IMG/VR virus record: IMGVR_UViG_3300046501_000355
Span: 1-22,188 of that record
DNA from: a virus
Direction: 5' to 3' (one strand)
Length of the DNA: 22,188 bases
This document shows, in pieces, positions 5,560-17,755 of this stretch. The position numbers were made by a program, and so were the translations under genes. The notes under the pieces were generated by a model. It was not told where the DNA came from. It made no database searches and worked only from the letters and a program-made list of their open reading frames with translations. Positions within the stretch are counted from its first letter, which is position 1; the number at the start of each line of letters is the position of its first letter.

Positions 5560-6898
5560 CGTCATAACCTTCATTTGGCGGTGGTGGATCATCTTCAGCC
5601 TGGTTAATTTCCTCATCAGTTATATGTGAGAAAATACCAGTAGATTCACTAGACTGGCGCAATTCTTTTAACGCCGTTTGACGTGAGATGATTCCAGATT
5701 CTTCAACCTTCGTAACTGCCTCAGCCACTTTTGCAGCAATACTTGCCTTTTTCTCGTCATCAATTTGCCACAATGAAGCAAAATCAAACTTAAATGAACT
5801 TGGTAAAGGCTTACCTAATTTTGACCGAGAAACAACTTCAAGCAACTTATGCAACGGCGTACGCATACGCCCTTCCTGTTGTTGGTTGATATTGTCGTAA
5901 TAGTTGGAAAGGTCAGATTCACCAGTAGCATTAAAACCTGCAGGCGATTGGCCAAATAATCGAATTAATGGAATACCTAAAGCTCCAGCAATTTGCTGGC
6001 CGAATTGCATCAGAATACTATCAAGCCCAGTAAAACTATATTGGTGTGCCTCATAAGTATCTTCAGCATCCATCAAGGTCATGCCTTCATTAGACTGCCA
6101 TAGTCGGATTTGGTTAATTTGCTTAACAAGAGCCTCATATAATGGTCCTCCTGCAGCAATGAGGCTACGCAACCCTTTAACTTTATAAGTCCTCAAATGA
6201 GCCTTATAGATAAGCTGACCAGCACCTAAAGTTGCACTATCGAAAATAGTTAAACGATCCTCAAGACGCTCAATGACTGATTGGCCCCATAAGTTTTCCG
6301 CAATAGCTTGCCAATATGGAAGTTTTACCCCATCCATTCGCATTACACGGGAATAATGAATTCGTTGATTACAAAGCCCCACTGAATCCGTAATGACATC
6401 GTAATACTTAGGCATCCCATAATCAGGGCCATATTCAGTAACAAGATCTTGAAGGTCTGGTAGAACCATCCAACGATCAAGAACCAATAAGCCTTTAAAC
6501 TGGTCTTTACCAATCGTATTGATATTTAGCGGTGTAGAAACATTCTGACCATCAATTAACATTACGGCGATAGCACCGCCGTATAGTCTGGACCAACGAA
6601 TTGTTTCATTGATCTTATCCCATACTTGTAAGCGGTCTAGTTCCTGGTTGATTGATTCAACATGTTCTGGATCTTCCATGCCACGGATATTGATCCCCTC
6701 ACGGGTCATATCATCGGCAACCACATCTACAGCTTGGCCAACCACCCAGCTAGAACGATACATAGCCTCAAGCTTTAAGCGGTCGCGGCTAGTATAGTTA
6801 AAACCATAAGTTGATTGATCATGCTGGTTCCCTGAACCCAACCCAACGCGAGCGGCAAAGTTCTGGAATGAATCTTTTGTAAATTTAATTAAGCCCAT
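5486..6898 (-). CDS. Portal protein, DUF1073 family
   Basis: The 470-residue protein carries DUF1073 portal features: GFNYTSRDRLKLEAMYRSSWVVGQAVD near the N-terminus, WSRLYGGAIAVMLIDGQ, and GIPLIRLFGQSPAGFNATGESDLSNYYDNI in the C-terminal half. Portal proteins form the dodecameric ring through which DNA is packaged and to which terminase docks. The gene directly follows terminase large, the usual order. The acidic, Pro-rich tail (DDPPPPNEGYDDEE) overlaps the start of the MuF-like gene. Pfam and NCBI labels for this family can mention the anti-CBASS protein Acb1; position and length make a portal function far more likely here. Confidence 0.88.
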   Translation of the reverse strand: MGLIKFTKDSFQNFAARVGLGSGNQHDQSTYGFNYTSRDRLKLEAMYRSSWVVGQAVDVVADDMTREGINIRGMEDPEHVESINQELDRLQVWDKINETIRWSRLYGGAIAVMLIDGQNVSTPLNINTIGKDQFKGLLVLDRWMVLPDLQDLVTEYGPDYGMPKYYDVITDSVGLCNQRIHYSRVMRMDGVKLPYWQAIAENLWGQSVIERLEDRLTIFDSATLGAGQLIYKAHLRTYKVKGLRSLIAAGGPLYEALVKQINQIRLWQSNEGMTLMDAEDTYEAHQYSFTGLDSILMQFGQQIAGALGIPLIRLFGQSPAGFNATGESDLSNYYDNINQQQEGRMRTPLHKLLEVVSRSKLGKPLPSSFKFDFASLWQIDDEKKASIAAKVAEAVTKVEESGIISRQTALKELRQSSESTGIFSHITDEEINQAEDDPPPPNEGYDDEEPNKSDNAESSEKDRDTLQPAA

Positions 6899-10767: not shown

Positions 10768-10809
10768 ATTTTAGAAATCTTTATACTCAAGTGTATACCC
10801 AACTGTCAA
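10768..10809 (-). promoter_or_regulatory. Late promoter (pR'-like) with pause-like element
   Basis: On the minus strand a perfect -35 TTGACA (10809-10804) is followed after 18 bases by TATAAA (10785-10780). Six bases later lies TAAAAT (10773-10768), a second -10-like hexamer at about +1 to +6. In lambdoid late promoters such an element holds sigma and pauses polymerase so that Q can load. The TGA stop of the Q-like gene is inside the -35 hexamer. A Q-binding site would lie in the spacer but cannot be recognised by eye. Confidence 0.72.
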
Positions 10810-11558
10810 GCACAAGTTTCTTGATTATCAGGAAGTTCGTATTGAAACGATCTACGAATCCTACCTCTAATCTCATTTTCCCATTGTGCAACAATAGATT
10901 CTCCAAAAAGTTCATACTTCTGGTAGCTCTTGATATATGCGGTTTTAGTTGCTGTAATTTTCGCAATATTCATTTTCTCATTTAACGTGTAAGGGCGCTT
11001 ACCTGTGCCATCACACTTATTGCAAAATACTGCCCCGTTAGGGTTGCCTTTTGAATTGTAAGTTTCAAGCTTACCAAGCCCCTGACAAGACCCACACATA
11101 GCCTTAACAAATAAATGGCTACGTAAAACTATCTCAGCTATCCCTTTTGCAAGATTAGTTAAATCACCTTGAGCATTAGTAGGCTTAAATTTTTTCTTTA
11201 TCATTTCTTTGTGGATTTTGACTGCCAATTTGTTTCGAGCTCTAAAAAAATCACCTGACTTAATCTCACCACGAACAAACTCTACCTTTCCGGGAATATC
11301 CTCAATACGGCGCTCTGTCTCAAAGTTAAAATCAAACTTACTAACAAATGTCTCAGTTTGCTTTTGAGCTGGGGTAATGATTGCTATGCGCTCAAAATCT
11401 ACCTTTTCAACAAGCAAAGTAGCCCATAATCTAGCATCTGGTGATAGAAGCCCTAGTTCACCTAAAACAATATCTTTAGAAATCTTTTTACCTTCTGCCT
11501 TACCTTGAGCGATAGCAAGGCGAAGTAACTCAATAAAATCAAACTTTTCAACTAACAT
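10806..11558 (-). CDS. Q-like late antiterminator with zinc finger
   Basis: The 250-residue protein has a DnaJ-like zinc-binding region, CGSCQGLG (Cys155/158) and FCNKCDGTGK (Cys179/182), followed by a helical segment (YTLNEKMNIAKITATKTAYIKSYQKYELF) and a basic C-terminus. Lambda Q shows the same arrangement of CxxCxGxG pairs followed by a C-terminal helix. Q proteins bind DNA at the late promoter, join paused RNA polymerase and make it ignore terminators. The location supports this strongly: a strong promoter overlaps its stop codon and a terminator lies just beyond. AGGAAGG lies five bases before the ATG. Confidence 0.75.
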   Translation of the reverse strand: MLVEKFDFIELLRLAIAQGKAEGKKISKDIVLGELGLLSPDARLWATLLVEKVDFERIAIITPAQKQTETFVSKFDFNFETERRIEDIPGKVEFVRGEIKSGDFFRARNKLAVKIHKEMIKKKFKPTNAQGDLTNLAKGIAEIVLRSHLFVKAMCGSCQGLGKLETYNSKGNPNGAVFCNKCDGTGKRPYTLNEKMNIAKITATKTAYIKSYQKYELFGESIVAQWENEIRGRIRRSFQYELPDNQETCA

Positions 11559-14146: not shown

Positions 14147-14410
14147 ATTACCTTGAATAACTTGAAGTGGGTAATTGACCGTTGAATCCCCTTCATTCCC
14201 TTCTTCGACCACAATTGCCCGCATACGCTCATTTCTTCTAATACGCTCAAGCCCTAAACTTACGGTGTGCCACTCACCAACAATGGCTTTTTCAAAGAGG
14301 ATTACAGCTTGTCTACTTATCTCCATTCCGTAATAGGCGGAAATATCACGAAGTTTGTCCATGATTTCCGGATCGTGTTTTGTTCTAAGATCTTCTTTTT
14401 CAAGACTCAT
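14135..14410 (-). CDS. Putative ribbon-helix-helix early regulator
   Basis: This 91-residue protein begins MSLEKEDLRTKHDPEIMDKLRDISAYYGMEISRQAVILFEKAIVGE when read through its first half. A short strand (DLRTKHD) followed by two helices separated by a GMEIS turn fits an Arc/MetJ ribbon-helix-helix DNA-binding fold. The C-terminal part is acidic and polar. It is the second gene of the leftward early operon after the cro-like gene, the place of lambda cII. AAGGA lies seven bases before the ATG. The stop codon is within a terminator stem. Confidence 0.55.
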   Translation of the reverse strand: MSLEKEDLRTKHDPEIMDKLRDISAYYGMEISRQAVILFEKAIVGEWHTVSLGLERIRRNERMRAIVVEEGNEGDSTVNYPLQVIQGNKKA

Positions 14411-14420
14411 AAAAATTTCC

Positions 14421-14606
14421 TTATTCAGCAGCAGCTTTATGTTTTAGCGGCTCTTTGCCTTCAGCCAAATCGCGAATTTGGTATTCACGCGCTAATGGGA
14501 TTTTTTTGTCAGGCCATTGATAAACAGCAGAAGGCTCGATTCCTAACATCCCAGCCAACTCAACACCATTCACCCCAAGCAACTTAAATGCTTCTTCTTT
14601 AGTCAT
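14421..14606 (-). CDS. Cro-like repressor
   Basis: The 61-residue protein has a helix-turn-helix, VNGVELAGMLGIEPSAVYQWPDKKIP, in which 'GIEPSAVYQW' reads as the turn and recognition helix of a Cro/YdaS-type protein. It is the first gene of the minus-strand early operon, divergent from the CI-like repressor, with the operators between them. I use ATG 14606, which has GGA seven bases upstream; an ATG at 14612 and a TTG at 14618 are in frame but badly spaced. It would bind the same TAAG-N4-CTTA operators and favour lytic growth. Confidence 0.8.
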   Translation of the reverse strand: MTKEEAFKLLGVNGVELAGMLGIEPSAVYQWPDKKIPLAREYQIRDLAEGKEPLKHKAAAE

Positions 14607-14622
14607 AACCATATCCAAAAAG

Positions 14623-14681
14623 TAAGATTTCTTAGTATTTAATCAAAGAAAACTTATAAAAGCAATATGTAAGATAACTTA
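14623..14681. promoter_or_regulatory. Central operator with divergent promoters (OR-like)
   Basis: Three operator copies of TAAG-N4-CTTA are present: TAAGATTTCTTA (14623-14634), AAAGAAAACTTA (14645-14656, first base deviating) and TAAGATAACTTA (14670-14681). The leftward promoter reads TTGCTT (14665-14660), 17 bases, TTAAAT (14642-14637), so the middle operator fills its spacer and the first covers its start. A weak rightward promoter for cI could be TTAGTA (14632-14637), 17 bases, TATAAA (14655-14660). The third operator touches the cI start codon, fitting autoregulation. Confidence 0.75.
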
Positions 14682-14682
14682 T

Positions 14683-15360
14683 ATGAATAGAGATACTATT
14701 GGTCAGCGCATACGTGCGCTTAGACGCGCTAAAAAATTAACTCAAGTGCAATTGGCGAAGATTGCAGGTGTTAGTTCGCCCGCTGTAACAGAATGGGAGA
14801 AAGACAGCTATTTACCCAAAGCGGGATCATTAGAAGCAATGGCGAATGCTTTTGGTGTTACAACTGAATATATATTGACTGGTAAAGGTGAAGTTCTAGC
14901 TCAAGAGTCTACAAATGTAGCTCCTGTTCAGGCCCGCATGGCTCCAGTTCTTTCATGGGTTCAAGCTGGTAATTTTACCAATGTTGAGTCAGTCGATATG
15001 TCTCAGGTAACAGAGTGGCTCCCTCTTCCTGATGAATGTACCAACTGTTTTTATTTAAAAGTTCAAGGCGTTAGTAATCAACCAGACTTTCTAGAGGGCG
15101 ATTATATTCTTGTTGACCCAGATGTTTACTATAGTGATATGCAATCTGGCGATATGATTGTGGTTCGGAAATTTGAAGATGCCACTTTTAAAAAACTTGT
15201 TATCGAGACAGATGGCTCTCGCTTTCTACAAGCTCTAAATCCTAAATTTGAACCAAATATCATTCCCTTGGATGAGCATTGTCATTTTGTAGGACAAGTA
15301 GTTGACTGCATGCGATATACATACAGAGCAAAAAGAAGATCCAAACCCAAACATTCTTAA
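14683..15360 (+). CDS. CI-like repressor (XRE helix-turn-helix plus S24 peptidase)
   Basis: The 225-residue protein has an N-terminal XRE domain (about 5-65; LTQVQLAKIAGVSSPAVTEWEKD) and a C-terminal LexA/CI-type S24 domain. The candidate self-cleavage bond is Ala95-Gly96 in SWVQAGNF. The nucleophile is Ser131 in VQGVSNQPDF, a variant of the usual GDSMxP with Val and Asn in place of Asp and Met, and the general base is Lys170 in DATFKKL. It should hold the prophage silent by binding both operator clusters and be inactivated by RecA-stimulated cleavage after DNA damage. The leader is very short and no good ribosome-binding site is seen. Confidence 0.88.
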   Translation: MNRDTIGQRIRALRRAKKLTQVQLAKIAGVSSPAVTEWEKDSYLPKAGSLEAMANAFGVTTEYILTGKGEVLAQESTNVAPVQARMAPVLSWVQAGNFTNVESVDMSQVTEWLPLPDECTNCFYLKVQGVSNQPDFLEGDYILVDPDVYYSDMQSGDMIVVRKFEDATFKKLVIETDGSRFLQALNPKFEPNIIPLDEHCHFVGQVVDCMRYTYRAKRRSKPKHS

Positions 15361-15373
15361 AAAAGAGAACATA

Positions 15374-15676
15374 ATGATCGCAACACTTAATAAATCCAAA
15401 ACTGCGCTAACGATTAATCGTCAAGAATTTAAATTGGCTTTGGGCAAAATTGGCGCAGGAATTGATAAACAAATAAACTCCCTTAAAAAAGCCAAGCAGA
15501 GCTATGACGCTGTGGAAATGGCACGTGAGGTCATTAGTGAAGCAAATATCTTTGAAGCTATTATTGAAGGCTTTAATGAGGCAGAAGGCACCAATCTAAA
15601 ACTGACTGATATAACCAATATTGAAGCGGCTCAAGAATGGATAGATGAATTTTTAGAAAAGTATTCAAGTATATAA
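15374..15676 (+). CDS. Hypothetical 100-aa protein cotranscribed with cI
   Basis: ATG 15374 has AAAGAGAA just upstream and lies 13 bases after the cI stop, so it is probably expressed from the same lysogenic transcript. The protein has a basic N-terminal half (LNKSKTALTINRQEFKLALGKIGAGIDKQINSLKKAKQ) and an acidic, helical C-terminal half ending EAAQEWIDEFLEKYSSI. No membrane segment or known motif. Being expressed in lysogens it could act in immunity or exclusion, but nothing in the sequence shows this. Confidence 0.6.
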   Translation: MIATLNKSKTALTINRQEFKLALGKIGAGIDKQINSLKKAKQSYDAVEMAREVISEANIFEAIIEGFNEAEGTNLKLTDITNIEAAQEWIDEFLEKYSSI

Positions 15677-15773
15677 ACAGCACAAATCAACTTTGTAGGC
15701 TAGATAATAAAGCTGTGACCCGACACGATTCTATAGAAATAAGTGGAAGAGTTAAAATTTAAGCCACTAAAGT

Positions 15774-15792
15774 GCAACTAAAATTTAGTTGC
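15774..15792. promoter_or_regulatory. Palindrome upstream of hicA (probable HicB operator)
   Basis: GCAACTAAA-A-TTTAGTTGC is a perfect nine-base inverted repeat ending 28 bases before the hicA start. A possible -10 TAAAAT (15779-15784) lies inside it. HicB antitoxins with ribbon-helix-helix domains repress their own operon by binding such palindromes. The 144-base gap 15677-15820 holds no gene. The repeat is AT-rich with T's after it, so a weak terminator for the upstream gene is an alternative reading. Confidence 0.5.
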
Positions 15793-15820
15793 AATATTTT
15801 TTAAATACAAGGAAAATAAT

Positions 15821-16084
15821 GTGACCAAAGCAGAGAAATTATTAGAACGATTTTTCACTAATCCTCCACCTAAAAACTTTAAGTGGAATGATTTCGTTAC
15901 AATGATGGAACGCTTAGGTTTCACTCTAGTATTTAATGGAAGAGGTAGCTCCCATTGCATATTCTACAAAGATAATCCAAAGATCGTACTTAACTTCTTA
16001 AAACCTCATCCAAATGATGAGCTAAAAGTTATTTATGTCAAGAAGGCAAGAGAGTTCCTTAAAGAGCATGGGATTGGAGTATAA
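15821..16084 (+). CDS. hicA: HicA toxin (mRNA interferase)
   Basis: The 87-residue protein has the HicA dsRNA-binding-like fold signatures: KNFKWNDFVTMMERLGF, the catalytic GSSH (42-45, His45) and KPHPNDELKVIYVKKAREFL in the C-terminal half. HicA cleaves mRNA, including tmRNA, and stops growth unless bound by HicB. Compared with compact HicA proteins it is slightly long. It starts with GTG, preceded by AAGGA seven bases away; the weak start codon may keep toxin levels low. The order toxin then antitoxin is the normal one for hicAB. Confidence 0.85.
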   Translation: MTKAEKLLERFFTNPPPKNFKWNDFVTMMERLGFTLVFNGRGSSHCIFYKDNPKIVLNFLKPHPNDELKVIYVKKAREFLKEHGIGV

Positions 16085-16085
16085 A

Positions 16086-16538
16086 ATGAAAGAAACTTTT
16101 AAATACAAGGGCTTTGAAGGCTCCATGGAATTTAGTTCAGAAGATGAATGCTTGGTAGGTGAGGTCTTATTTATACGCTCCAAGATTATCTATATTGGTG
16201 AAACTTATAGTGAGTTAAAACAATCTTTTGAAGAGGCTGTTGATGCTTATATTCTCCATTGTGAAGCAAACAATATTAAGCCAGAGAAGCCCTGTAGTGG
16301 AACCTTTAATGTAAGAGTTGGCACTCATCTTCATCAATCGGCTATTAAGCTTGCATATCAAAATAACATCTCGCTTAATGAAGTAGTGATACGAGCTTTA
16401 GAGCACTTCCTAGCAACTGACCATACAGAAAGTAGCAATTTTACAGTTAATTTAAAAAATAGCCCAGTCAATATTATGAATATCTCTCAAAAAAATATAC
16501 TTTTACCTAAAAAACGTAGTTCAGAATATTTTAATTAA
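16086..16538 (+). CDS. hicB: HicB antitoxin
   Basis: The start ATG 16086 lies one base after the hicA stop with TTGGAG seven bases upstream, giving 150 residues. The N-terminal domain (about 1-65; KYKGFEGSMEFSSEDECLVGEVLFI, then YIGETYSELKQSFEEAVDAYI) is the partly degenerate RNase H-like fold that binds HicA. Residues about 72-110 (GTFNVRVGTHLHQSAIKLAYQNNISLNEVVIRALEHFL) form a ribbon-helix-helix DNA-binding domain. A polar C-terminal extension of about 40 residues is AT-rich and unlike either domain. It neutralises HicA and should repress the operon at the palindrome upstream. Confidence 0.85.
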   Translation: MKETFKYKGFEGSMEFSSEDECLVGEVLFIRSKIIYIGETYSELKQSFEEAVDAYILHCEANNIKPEKPCSGTFNVRVGTHLHQSAIKLAYQNNISLNEVVIRALEHFLATDHTESSNFTVNLKNSPVNIMNISQKNILLPKKRSSEYFN

Positions 16539-16562
16539 TTTTTAAAGCCATAAGGATAATCA

Positions 16563-17015
16563 ATGAGTAATTCTAGAGATAAAAAAACAAATCTAGCATT
16601 AAGTATTTTATGTGACTCAATAGATGGCTCTGAAGACAATATTGAGTTTCCAATCACACTAGTTGTTGCTGGACAACTCATTACAGGACTAATTATTAGT
16701 GAAAAAAGCTTTTATAATTTAGAGTCAAATCTGGCACTTAAGCCAATTTATGAATTGATTTCTAAAGAAAGATCTGAATATTTTAATATTAATGGTTCTT
16801 TTAAAAATGAAAATATAACCGATGAAGAGATTGATAAAATTCCAGATACTCTTTGGCAAAGATTTTTGTATTTAAAAGATGCAAGATATATGACTGGGAA
16901 TACTTTTGTTCCCAGTGAAAATAATCAAGGGTCTGCAATACAAGTTAGAGTATCAGATATTGTTGCTTTTAACTTTGGGACATTTACTACCACCAAGAAC
17001 GACGATGATTCTTAG
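16563..17015 (+). CDS. GvpU-like protein in the hicAB cassette
   Basis: The 150-residue protein resembles the gas-vesicle accessory protein GvpU family: a beta segment FPITLVVAGQLITGLIISEKSFYNL (about 29-53), a polar helical middle, then FLYLKDARYMTGN (about 101-113) and a final VRVSDIVAFNFGTF (about 128-141). No other gas-vesicle gene is present, so a role in flotation is very unlikely. It starts 24 bases after hicB with AAGGA close by, before a terminator, so it is probably cotranscribed with hicAB. Base composition is as AT-rich as hicB and higher in AT than the structural genes, consistent with an acquired accessory cassette. Function unknown. Confidence 0.55.
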   Translation: MSNSRDKKTNLALSILCDSIDGSEDNIEFPITLVVAGQLITGLIISEKSFYNLESNLALKPIYELISKERSEYFNINGSFKNENITDEEIDKIPDTLWQRFLYLKDARYMTGNTFVPSENNQGSAIQVRVSDIVAFNFGTFTTTKNDDDS

Positions 17016-17123
17016 TATTCAGTTCCGCAACTCCTTTTCTTATGGCTATCTTTAGCTTAAGACATGTGTCTATGGTGACTAGCGTAATTTGAATATTATC
17101 TTTTGATATAGCAGACTCCATCC

Positions 17124-17150
17124 AACCCACCACCACGGTGGGTTTTCTTT
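17124..17150 (+). terminator. Terminator after the GvpU-like gene
   Basis: AACCCACC (17124-17131) pairs with GGTGGGTT (17137-17144) around the five-base loop ACCAC, followed by TTCTTTT. It closes the rightward cI-hicAB-GvpU transcript ahead of the next promoter. Bases 17016-17123 before it hold no recognisable gene or signal. Confidence 0.8.
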
Positions 17151-17171
17151 TGTCTAGTAATTCATAAAAAT

Positions 17172-17242
17172 TAAGTTATCTTAAAATTAATTTAAGAATT
17201 CTTATATTTTCACTTGACTCAAAAACTAAGTTTTCTTATATT
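17172..17242 (+). promoter_or_regulatory. Second operator cluster and early promoter (OL/PL-like)
   Basis: Three operator copies lie at 17172-17183 (TAAGTTATCTTA, the exact reverse complement of the cI-proximal operator), 17193-17204 (TAAGAATTCTTA, a perfect palindrome) and 17227-17238 (TAAGTTTTCTTA). The promoter reads TTGACT (17214-17219), 17 bases, TATATT (17237-17242), so the third operator covers its spacer and -10. A repressor bound here would silence the + strand recombination operon in the lysogen. Loops between this cluster and the central one, 2.5 kb away, are possible as in lambda. Confidence 0.8.
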
Positions 17243-17259
17243 TATCTCGTAGACAACAA

Positions 17260-17304
17260 AAATCCCCGAAACTTTGGACGGAGACGGGGATTTGCAAACT
17301 TTGC
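17260..17304 (+). promoter_or_regulatory. Structured leader of the early + strand operon
   Basis: AAATCCCCG (17260-17268) and CGGGGATTT (17285-17293) form a nine-base stem with a 16-base loop, directly followed by a second small hairpin GCAAA-C-TTTGC (17294-17304). The octamer AAACTTTG occurs twice, once in the loop (17269-17276) and once in the second hairpin (17296-17303). The structure begins about ten bases after the predicted start point and ends ten bases before the first ATG. It has no U-tract, so it is not a simple terminator. It may be an antitermination or translation-control element. Confidence 0.55.
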
Positions 17305-17314
17305 GAGGTCAATT

Positions 17315-17755
17315 ATGAACTTAAATACAATTCCTTTCAACCACATCAAAGTGACAGGCTTCACAGCTCTGTTTTTGATTGCTGGTTTATCTTCTTGTGA
17401 ATATAAAACTGCACAATCAGGCTTATCTTCTAATTCCTACACTTTTACGCCACAAACACAGCCGAGTGATTACGGCGTTCAAACTGCAAAAATCACAGGT
17501 AAAACCTCTGGTGTTGCTGTTATCAAACTTGATGACTTTCGTGTAAACGTTAGTTTTGACTTTGAAACACATCCTGACAGCTTCGGAGTACCTGGTTCAG
17601 AATTTACAGCCGTTGATGTAACCCAGCTCACAATTAACGAGATTACCGATATAAACGGGAAATCTTACAGTGATTTCACTGATTACAACGATCACCGCAA
17701 TATCAATGCCCTACTTAAAGGCTTCATCGAACGTAATAAGTTGGTGGAGGCTTGA
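17315..17755 (+). CDS. Putative phage lipoprotein, first early gene
   Basis: The 146-residue protein has an N-terminal hydrophobic stretch VTGFTALFLIAGLSSC with a lipobox LSSC (Cys28) typical of lipoprotein signal peptides, preceded by a rather long polar n-region. The mature part is beta-rich and acidic (VAVIKLDDFRVNVSFDFETHPDSFG and following) and ends in a helix FIERNKLVEA. If processed it would be attached to a membrane on the periplasmic side. It is the first gene after the OL/PL-like promoter, so made early after infection or induction. I do not recognise its family; the lipobox is seen, export is inferred. Confidence 0.6.
   Translation: MNLNTIPFNHIKVTGFTALFLIAGLSSCEYKTAQSGLSSNSYTFTPQTQPSDYGVQTAKITGKTSGVAVIKLDDFRVNVSFDFETHPDSFGVPGSEFTAVDVTQLTINEITDINGKSYSDFTDYNDHRNINALLKGFIERNKLVEA

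Follow-up and report, generated by a model that had tools for sequence, protein, structure and literature searches.

The operators that would govern lysogeny were mapped in the complete IMG/VR record IMGVR_UViG_3300046501_000355, a viral stretch of 22,188 bases (the window). Two clusters of a short palindrome, at 14623-14681 and 17172-17238, are almost certainly the right (OR) and left (OL) operators of the P22-type immunity region of a temperate Acinetobacter phage. The original prediction had described two triplets of the motif TAAG-N4-CTTA, and both were recovered: exact copies start at 14623, 14670, 17172, 17193 and 17227, and the copy at 14645 carries one mismatch. As had also been claimed, a site of one cluster, TAAGATAACTTA at 14670, is the exact reverse complement of a site of the other, TAAGTTATCTTA at 17172. 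That the clusters form an OR/OL pair for a CI-like protein appears correct, judging from P22 homology and geometry, from conservation and from the matched change of OL and OR in other immunity types. The features of the P22 type are a C2-homologous CI, a divergent P22_Cro, an OR triplet with P22 spacing (its middle site with one mismatch) and a triplet at the left promoter (pL) whose proximal site lies over the -10. The kind is already known: it is a classical lysogeny switch, to which this phage adds another member. As the gene content indicates, the operon first described as rightward is the left (pL) operon in the lambda/P22 convention, and the leftward one is the operon of the right promoter (PR).

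Exact copies of TAAG-N4-CTTA number six in the whole window, and five of them lie within the two clusters. The sixth, at 10990-11001, is outside the clusters in the open reading frame (ORF) 10806-11558 and is taken as a chance occurrence because it sits in coding sequence and has a G/C centre. The same ORF, which belongs to the PR operon, matches a Q-like antitermination family weakly (phrog_6060, E 1.3e-4). Dinucleotide shuffles held a mean of 0.43 and a maximum of 4 exact copies per window; none of 1000 reached six, and none of 1000 gave two clusters of at least two copies within 70 bp. When each intergenic stretch was shuffled separately, its observed copy number was reached in 0 of 5000 shuffles. 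An artefact of chance or composition in AT-rich intergenic DNA would agree with the count obtained when one mismatch is allowed, which is near the chance frequency (17 copies against a mean of 12.2, with 9 of 100 shuffles reaching 17). Mismatch-tolerant counts are uninformative, and exact copies were used for the chance level; because of this near-chance count, the 14645 site rests on position and conservation. The shuffles of exact copies and the small number of copies in Acinetobacter genomes both speak against an artefact, and the conservation of the sites in 13 of 13 close relatives already refutes it, so that its probability is negligible.

This conservation was observed among 97 loci gathered by CI, of which 13 encode a CI that matches that of the window with 82-93% identity over nearly the full length, DNA-binding domain included. 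In every one of these 13, the OR motif is exact at -60 and -13 from the cI start, and the identical one-mismatch site is found at -38. All 13 also have three OL sites, with spacings of 21-22 and 32-34 bp (one site in L010 has one mismatch). These relatives, namely a prophage of Acinetobacter calcoaceticus ANC 3811 (L081) and the IMG/VR loci L001-L012, are alike in leader type and differ from the window in the length of the cargo between cI and OL. Since the distance from the cI start to the start of OL1 ranges from 1.2 to 3.8 kb among them, the cargo changes while the triplets stay, and the 2.5-kb OL-OR spacing noted originally is not conserved. Every one of the 46 phage records whose DNA resembles the window over 14400-17400 comes from an Acinetobacter phage.

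The motif had been expected to be enriched at these two places and not equally frequent elsewhere, and this was borne out. In nine related contigs (42-57 kb), 44 of 47 exact copies were located within the two clusters. In the L081 genome (3.8 Mb) the motif occurs 57 times, with five of the copies in the prophage among the matches listed, and six other genomes have 33-52 copies. Host-size genomes of 3.8-4.8 Mb thus contain only 33-57 copies each, clustering there being judged among the matches listed. The CI proteins of the remaining 84 loci have mainly the S24 domain in common with that of the window and differ in the DNA-binding domain; 83 of these loci, from a set with 46 distinct upstream sequences, have no exact site within 110 bp upstream of cI. 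The single locus with such a site is L013, whose CI has a different DNA-binding domain; it holds one TAAG-N4-CTTA at OR (5911-6005) and one at pL (11057-11139), about 5 kb apart. With its GTAA...TTAC-like neighbours, L013 is possibly a near-cognate operator type.

Phages with other immunity types provided an internal control. A search based on the phrog_1984 gene, the first gene of the pL operon, found 60 pL loci, of which 53 distinct ones were analysed; L143, L147 and L150 (match not near the gene start), loci with fewer than 900 bases upstream and repeated pL sequences were left out. The search named no motif: it accepted any gapped palindrome with 4-bp arms that had two or more copies before the phrog_1984 gene and two or more in a cluster farther upstream. 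A palindrome common to both regions was found in 25 of the 53 loci (24 of 52 without the window itself). Permutations gave a mean of 3.5 and a maximum of 10, and 0 of 2000 reached 25; for mismatched regions, the palindromes agreed in 99 of 2696 pairs of different type. The operator types include TAAG-N4-CTTA, TTAAC-N4-GTTAA, TACC-N5-GGTA, TAGG-N4-CCTA and GAAC-N5-GTTC, and some types made of A/T only may be due to chance. On its two sides, the distant cluster had a small leftward ORF (25 of 25 loci) and a rightward ORF longer than 150 residues (24 of 25). In loci with short leaders, the distance from the last OL site to the gene is nearly constant as the site sequence changes. This pattern is the one expected of OL/OR pairs when the repressor that reads them is swapped.

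The closest known system is Salmonella phage P22 (reference record BK000583), in which OR1-3 are annotated between cro and c2 and OL1-3 at pL. Relative to the c2 ATG, the 12-bp OR units of P22 immC begin at -63, -40 and -15; relative to the cI ATG, those of the window begin at -60, -38 and -13. OL spacings are 19 and 35 in P22 and 21 and 34 in the window, and in both the OL1 unit begins 13 bp downstream of the T that opens the TTGAC -35. Common to both phages are a C2-like CI, a P22_Cro, the AAG-N4-CTT core, three operators between cro and cI that reach almost to the ATG, and three at pL. CI is similar to the structures of P22 C2 (PDB 1adr, E 2.8e-9; 2r1j, E 4.3e-9), and no gap is needed to align the N-terminal domains. 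Both proteins have Gln21 and Trp38, whereas the recognition-helix positions 32, 33, 36 and 37 are Ser, Pro, Thr and Glu in CI and Asn, Val, Ser and Gln in P22. The change from Val33 to Pro33 may conceivably be the cause of the changed base outside the core described below, an idea based on the P22 complex for which a literature search gave no usable support. Of 46 distinct sites, 43 have a centre made up of A/T alone. This matches the centre preference of P22 C2, which favours A/T centres and reportedly loses binding with G/C there (available part of PMC3711457). The OL-OR span is 2.6 kb in the window, with HicAB and other cargo, as against 0.8 kb in P22. The pL leader also differs from that of P22, being a nested hairpin, and the first pL gene lacks an antiterminator match. 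In lambda, two triplets likewise bracket the immunity genes at a similar distance (about 2.3 kb), and the repressor is of the S24 kind in both; unlike lambda, the window has an operator sequence and a DNA-binding domain of P22 type, and its looping is only a candidate.

Table 1. Operators, promoters and neighbouring features of the immunity region (positions in the window).
Feature	Position	Strand	Description
OR1 (cro-proximal)	14623..14634	.	exact motif TAAGATTTCTTA; P22 OR1 equivalent
OR2	14645..14656	.	AAAGAAAACTTA, one mismatch; identical sequence in 17/17 loci
OR3	14670..14681	.	exact motif TAAGATAACTTA; ends 1 bp before the cI ATG; P22 OR3 equivalent
OL3 (promoter-distal)	17172..17183	.	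exact motif TAAGTTATCTTA
OL2	17193..17204	.	exact motif TAAGAATTCTTA
OL1	17227..17238	.	exact motif TAAGTTTTCTTA; within the pL spacer, overlaps the -10
PR candidate	14637..14665	-	-35 TTGCTT (14665-14660), 17 bp, -10 TTAAAT (14642-14637); placed from the P22 layout
PRM candidate	14647..14675	+	-10 TAAGAT inside OR3, weak -35; placed from the P22 PRM annotation
pL	17214..17242	+	TTGACT-17-TATATT, 10 of 12 consensus (promoter scan); geometry identical to P22
cro	14421..14618	-	PF14549 P22_Cro (35.1 bits, cut-off 30.2), phrog_409
cI repressor	14683..15360	+	helix-turn-helix and Peptidase_S24, phrog_4
Intrinsic-terminator-like hairpin	17124..17144	+	between cargo genes and OL; surrounding 17118-17170 87-91% identical in many Acinetobacter phages
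pL leader RNA	17243..17317	+	terminator-like hairpin nested in an outer stem; extends to the first-gene ATG
First pL gene	17315..17755	+	phrog_1984 (unknown function)

Of the promoter hexamers that both clusters had been said to overlap, those of the downstream cluster stood. PR and the promoter for repressor maintenance (PRM) fell below the threshold of the generic promoter scan and were placed by their position in P22; OR2 lies within the spacer of the PR candidate, as in P22. Promoter-like sites are not enriched in the region by the same scan (8 found, 10.8 expected).

The gene order is what P22-type immunity requires, namely divergent early operons with replication on the PR side and recombination and excision on the pL side (Table 1). 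On the minus strand, OR is followed by cro, an O-like replication protein, a Holliday junction resolvase, terminase and portal. The plus strand carries cI, an unknown gene, HicA, HicB, a second unknown gene, the terminator-like hairpin, OL/pL, phrog_1984, Erf and excisionase. The true start of cro is likely an internal ATG near 14606-14612, as relatives suggest. The first pL gene matched neither Pfam nor any N-type antiterminator; nut sites were not searched for. The HicA-HicB toxin-antitoxin pair occupies 15821-16538, between cI and OL, a stretch whose length varies in relatives.

The cargo raises the question whether the clusters serve different regulators, OR being read by CI and Cro and OL mainly by the HicB-like antitoxin or the product of 16563-17015. 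Antitoxins often regulate themselves, and both the HicAB pair and an unknown gene do lie between the clusters. However, one motif occurs in both clusters with the OR and OL spacing of P22, OL is downstream of the cargo and not at a hic promoter, and the triplets are kept although the OL-OR distance ranges from 1.2 to 3.8 kb among relatives. A split of this kind is therefore very unlikely.

Several observations weigh against the assignment of the clusters as P22-type OR and OL, in addition to the near-chance count of one-mismatch copies. OR2 departs from the motif; P22 OR2 likewise does. No palindrome common to both regions was present in 28 of the 53 pL loci. The 17 loci whose sites were compared are related, and three of them (L127, L129 and L130) were chosen for carrying the motif; their OL3 has one or two mismatches. 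Because the OL sites of the relatives were located by the motif itself, the invariance of the OL core is partly circular. The PR and PRM hexamers, placed by analogy, are weak, and binding by CI and Cro, together with control of early transcription, is predicted from sequence. Finally, T is the base outside the core in all 12 P22 half-sites, but among the half-sites of the window's operator family it is found in only 21 of 92. Recognition is thus not identical to that of P22, and with the core shared but the outer T not fixed, the region is of P22 type but probably does not belong to the P22 immunity group.

On the assignment as OR and OL, the switch would operate as follows. In the lysogen, CI dimers would bind the palindromes through AAG-N4-CTT. 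CI at OR1/OR2 and OL1/OL2 would silence PR, serving the leftward operon (cro, the O-like replication protein and, later, the late genes), and pL, serving the rightward one (phrog_1984, Erf and excisionase). OR3, which holds the PRM -10, would set PRM. SOS-triggered, RecA-type self-cleavage in the S24 domain of CI would free both operons, and Cro, competing for the same sites, would lead to lytic growth. Residues A95-G96, S131 and K171 of CI sit where those of RecA-type self-cleavage are expected, and by analogy with lambda CI they would have the catalytic roles. Occupancy by CI and Cro, the order of site affinities and the cleavage of CI are all inferred. Cooperativity between adjacent sites is likely, and the constant one-mismatch OR2 suggests a site needing cooperative help from OR1.

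The original prediction also suggested looping between the two clusters. OL3 is located outside the promoter, at 30 bp upstream from the pL -35, yet it is present in 14 of 14 close loci (window included), so that it probably does more than occlude pL, and OL3-OR3 bridging is the obvious candidate for an extra role. Degeneracy of OL3 in three more distant loci weakens this point. In the available part of PMC8053113, the repressors of lambda, HK022 and phiKO2 loop OL to OR in vivo over natural distances of 0.6-2.3 kb. By analogy, we lean towards OL-OR looping by CI. For the looping part alone, OL and OR might instead be independent local switches with cooperativity between neighbouring sites only and no loop. 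The variable OL-OR distance would fit such switches, as would the 933W repressor, which reportedly binds adjacent sites without apparent cooperativity (available part of PMC3317979); simple occlusion, however, has no need of the OL3 kept in all close loci, and all three repressors of PMC8053113 do loop. Independent switches are hence a real but somewhat doubtful possibility.

Downstream of OL, the predicted outer stem of the pL leader RNA pairs the 5' end of the transcript with the Shine-Dalgarno region of the first pL gene. Selection on the form of the 3' end left 51 of 60 distinct leaders, and 33 of the 51 were used for covariation. In these 33, 82% of the outer-stem cells were paired and five pairs were changed on both sides, and the covariation score exceeded all 500 shuffles and all slid controls. 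For three pairs of the inner stem, 6 to 8 sequences had changes on both sides. Rfam at its gathering thresholds gave no match in the window. A model built from these leaders finds matches at the pL of phages that have other operators. It also has matches in 44 of the 79 Acinetobacter genomes searched, with rough E-values and weak matches that may be chance. The leader precedes two unrelated first-gene families, in 18 and 4 of 23 loci (one more is unassigned). A put-like reading, with an antiterminator RNA at both early promoters, was considered and rejected. In the 30 sources searched, the leader occurs mostly at pL, where strong minus-strand matches mirror the same hairpin, and PR of the window yielded no copy. 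These results therefore do not support a two-sided put system. Between L002 (7864-7943) and L007 (7864-7941), operators and OL-cI distance are identical and the inner leader hairpins differ, as if the inner hairpin had been exchanged as a unit.

We tentatively propose, as an idea that is more doubtful than not, that pL control in temperate Acinetobacter phages is a modular cassette. Its promoter position would be constant, and its operator triplets would be swapped together with the distant OR and CI. The nested-stem leader without an Rfam match would gate the pL operon independently of immunity type and first gene, through translation, antitermination or processing by RNase III, and CI would bridge OL and OR over a cargo stretch of variable length. 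The conserved, structured leader RNA beside the switch merits a separate study.

With these sites, the operators of an Acinetobacter phage immunity group are now mapped. A literature search, with subscription journals mostly outside its reach, returned no operator map of an Acinetobacter phage, the available part of PMC7354433 included. Even at a repressor identity of about 37%, the operator layout of P22 is retained across host families, and the matched OL/OR types predict from sequence which Acinetobacter prophages would exclude each other.

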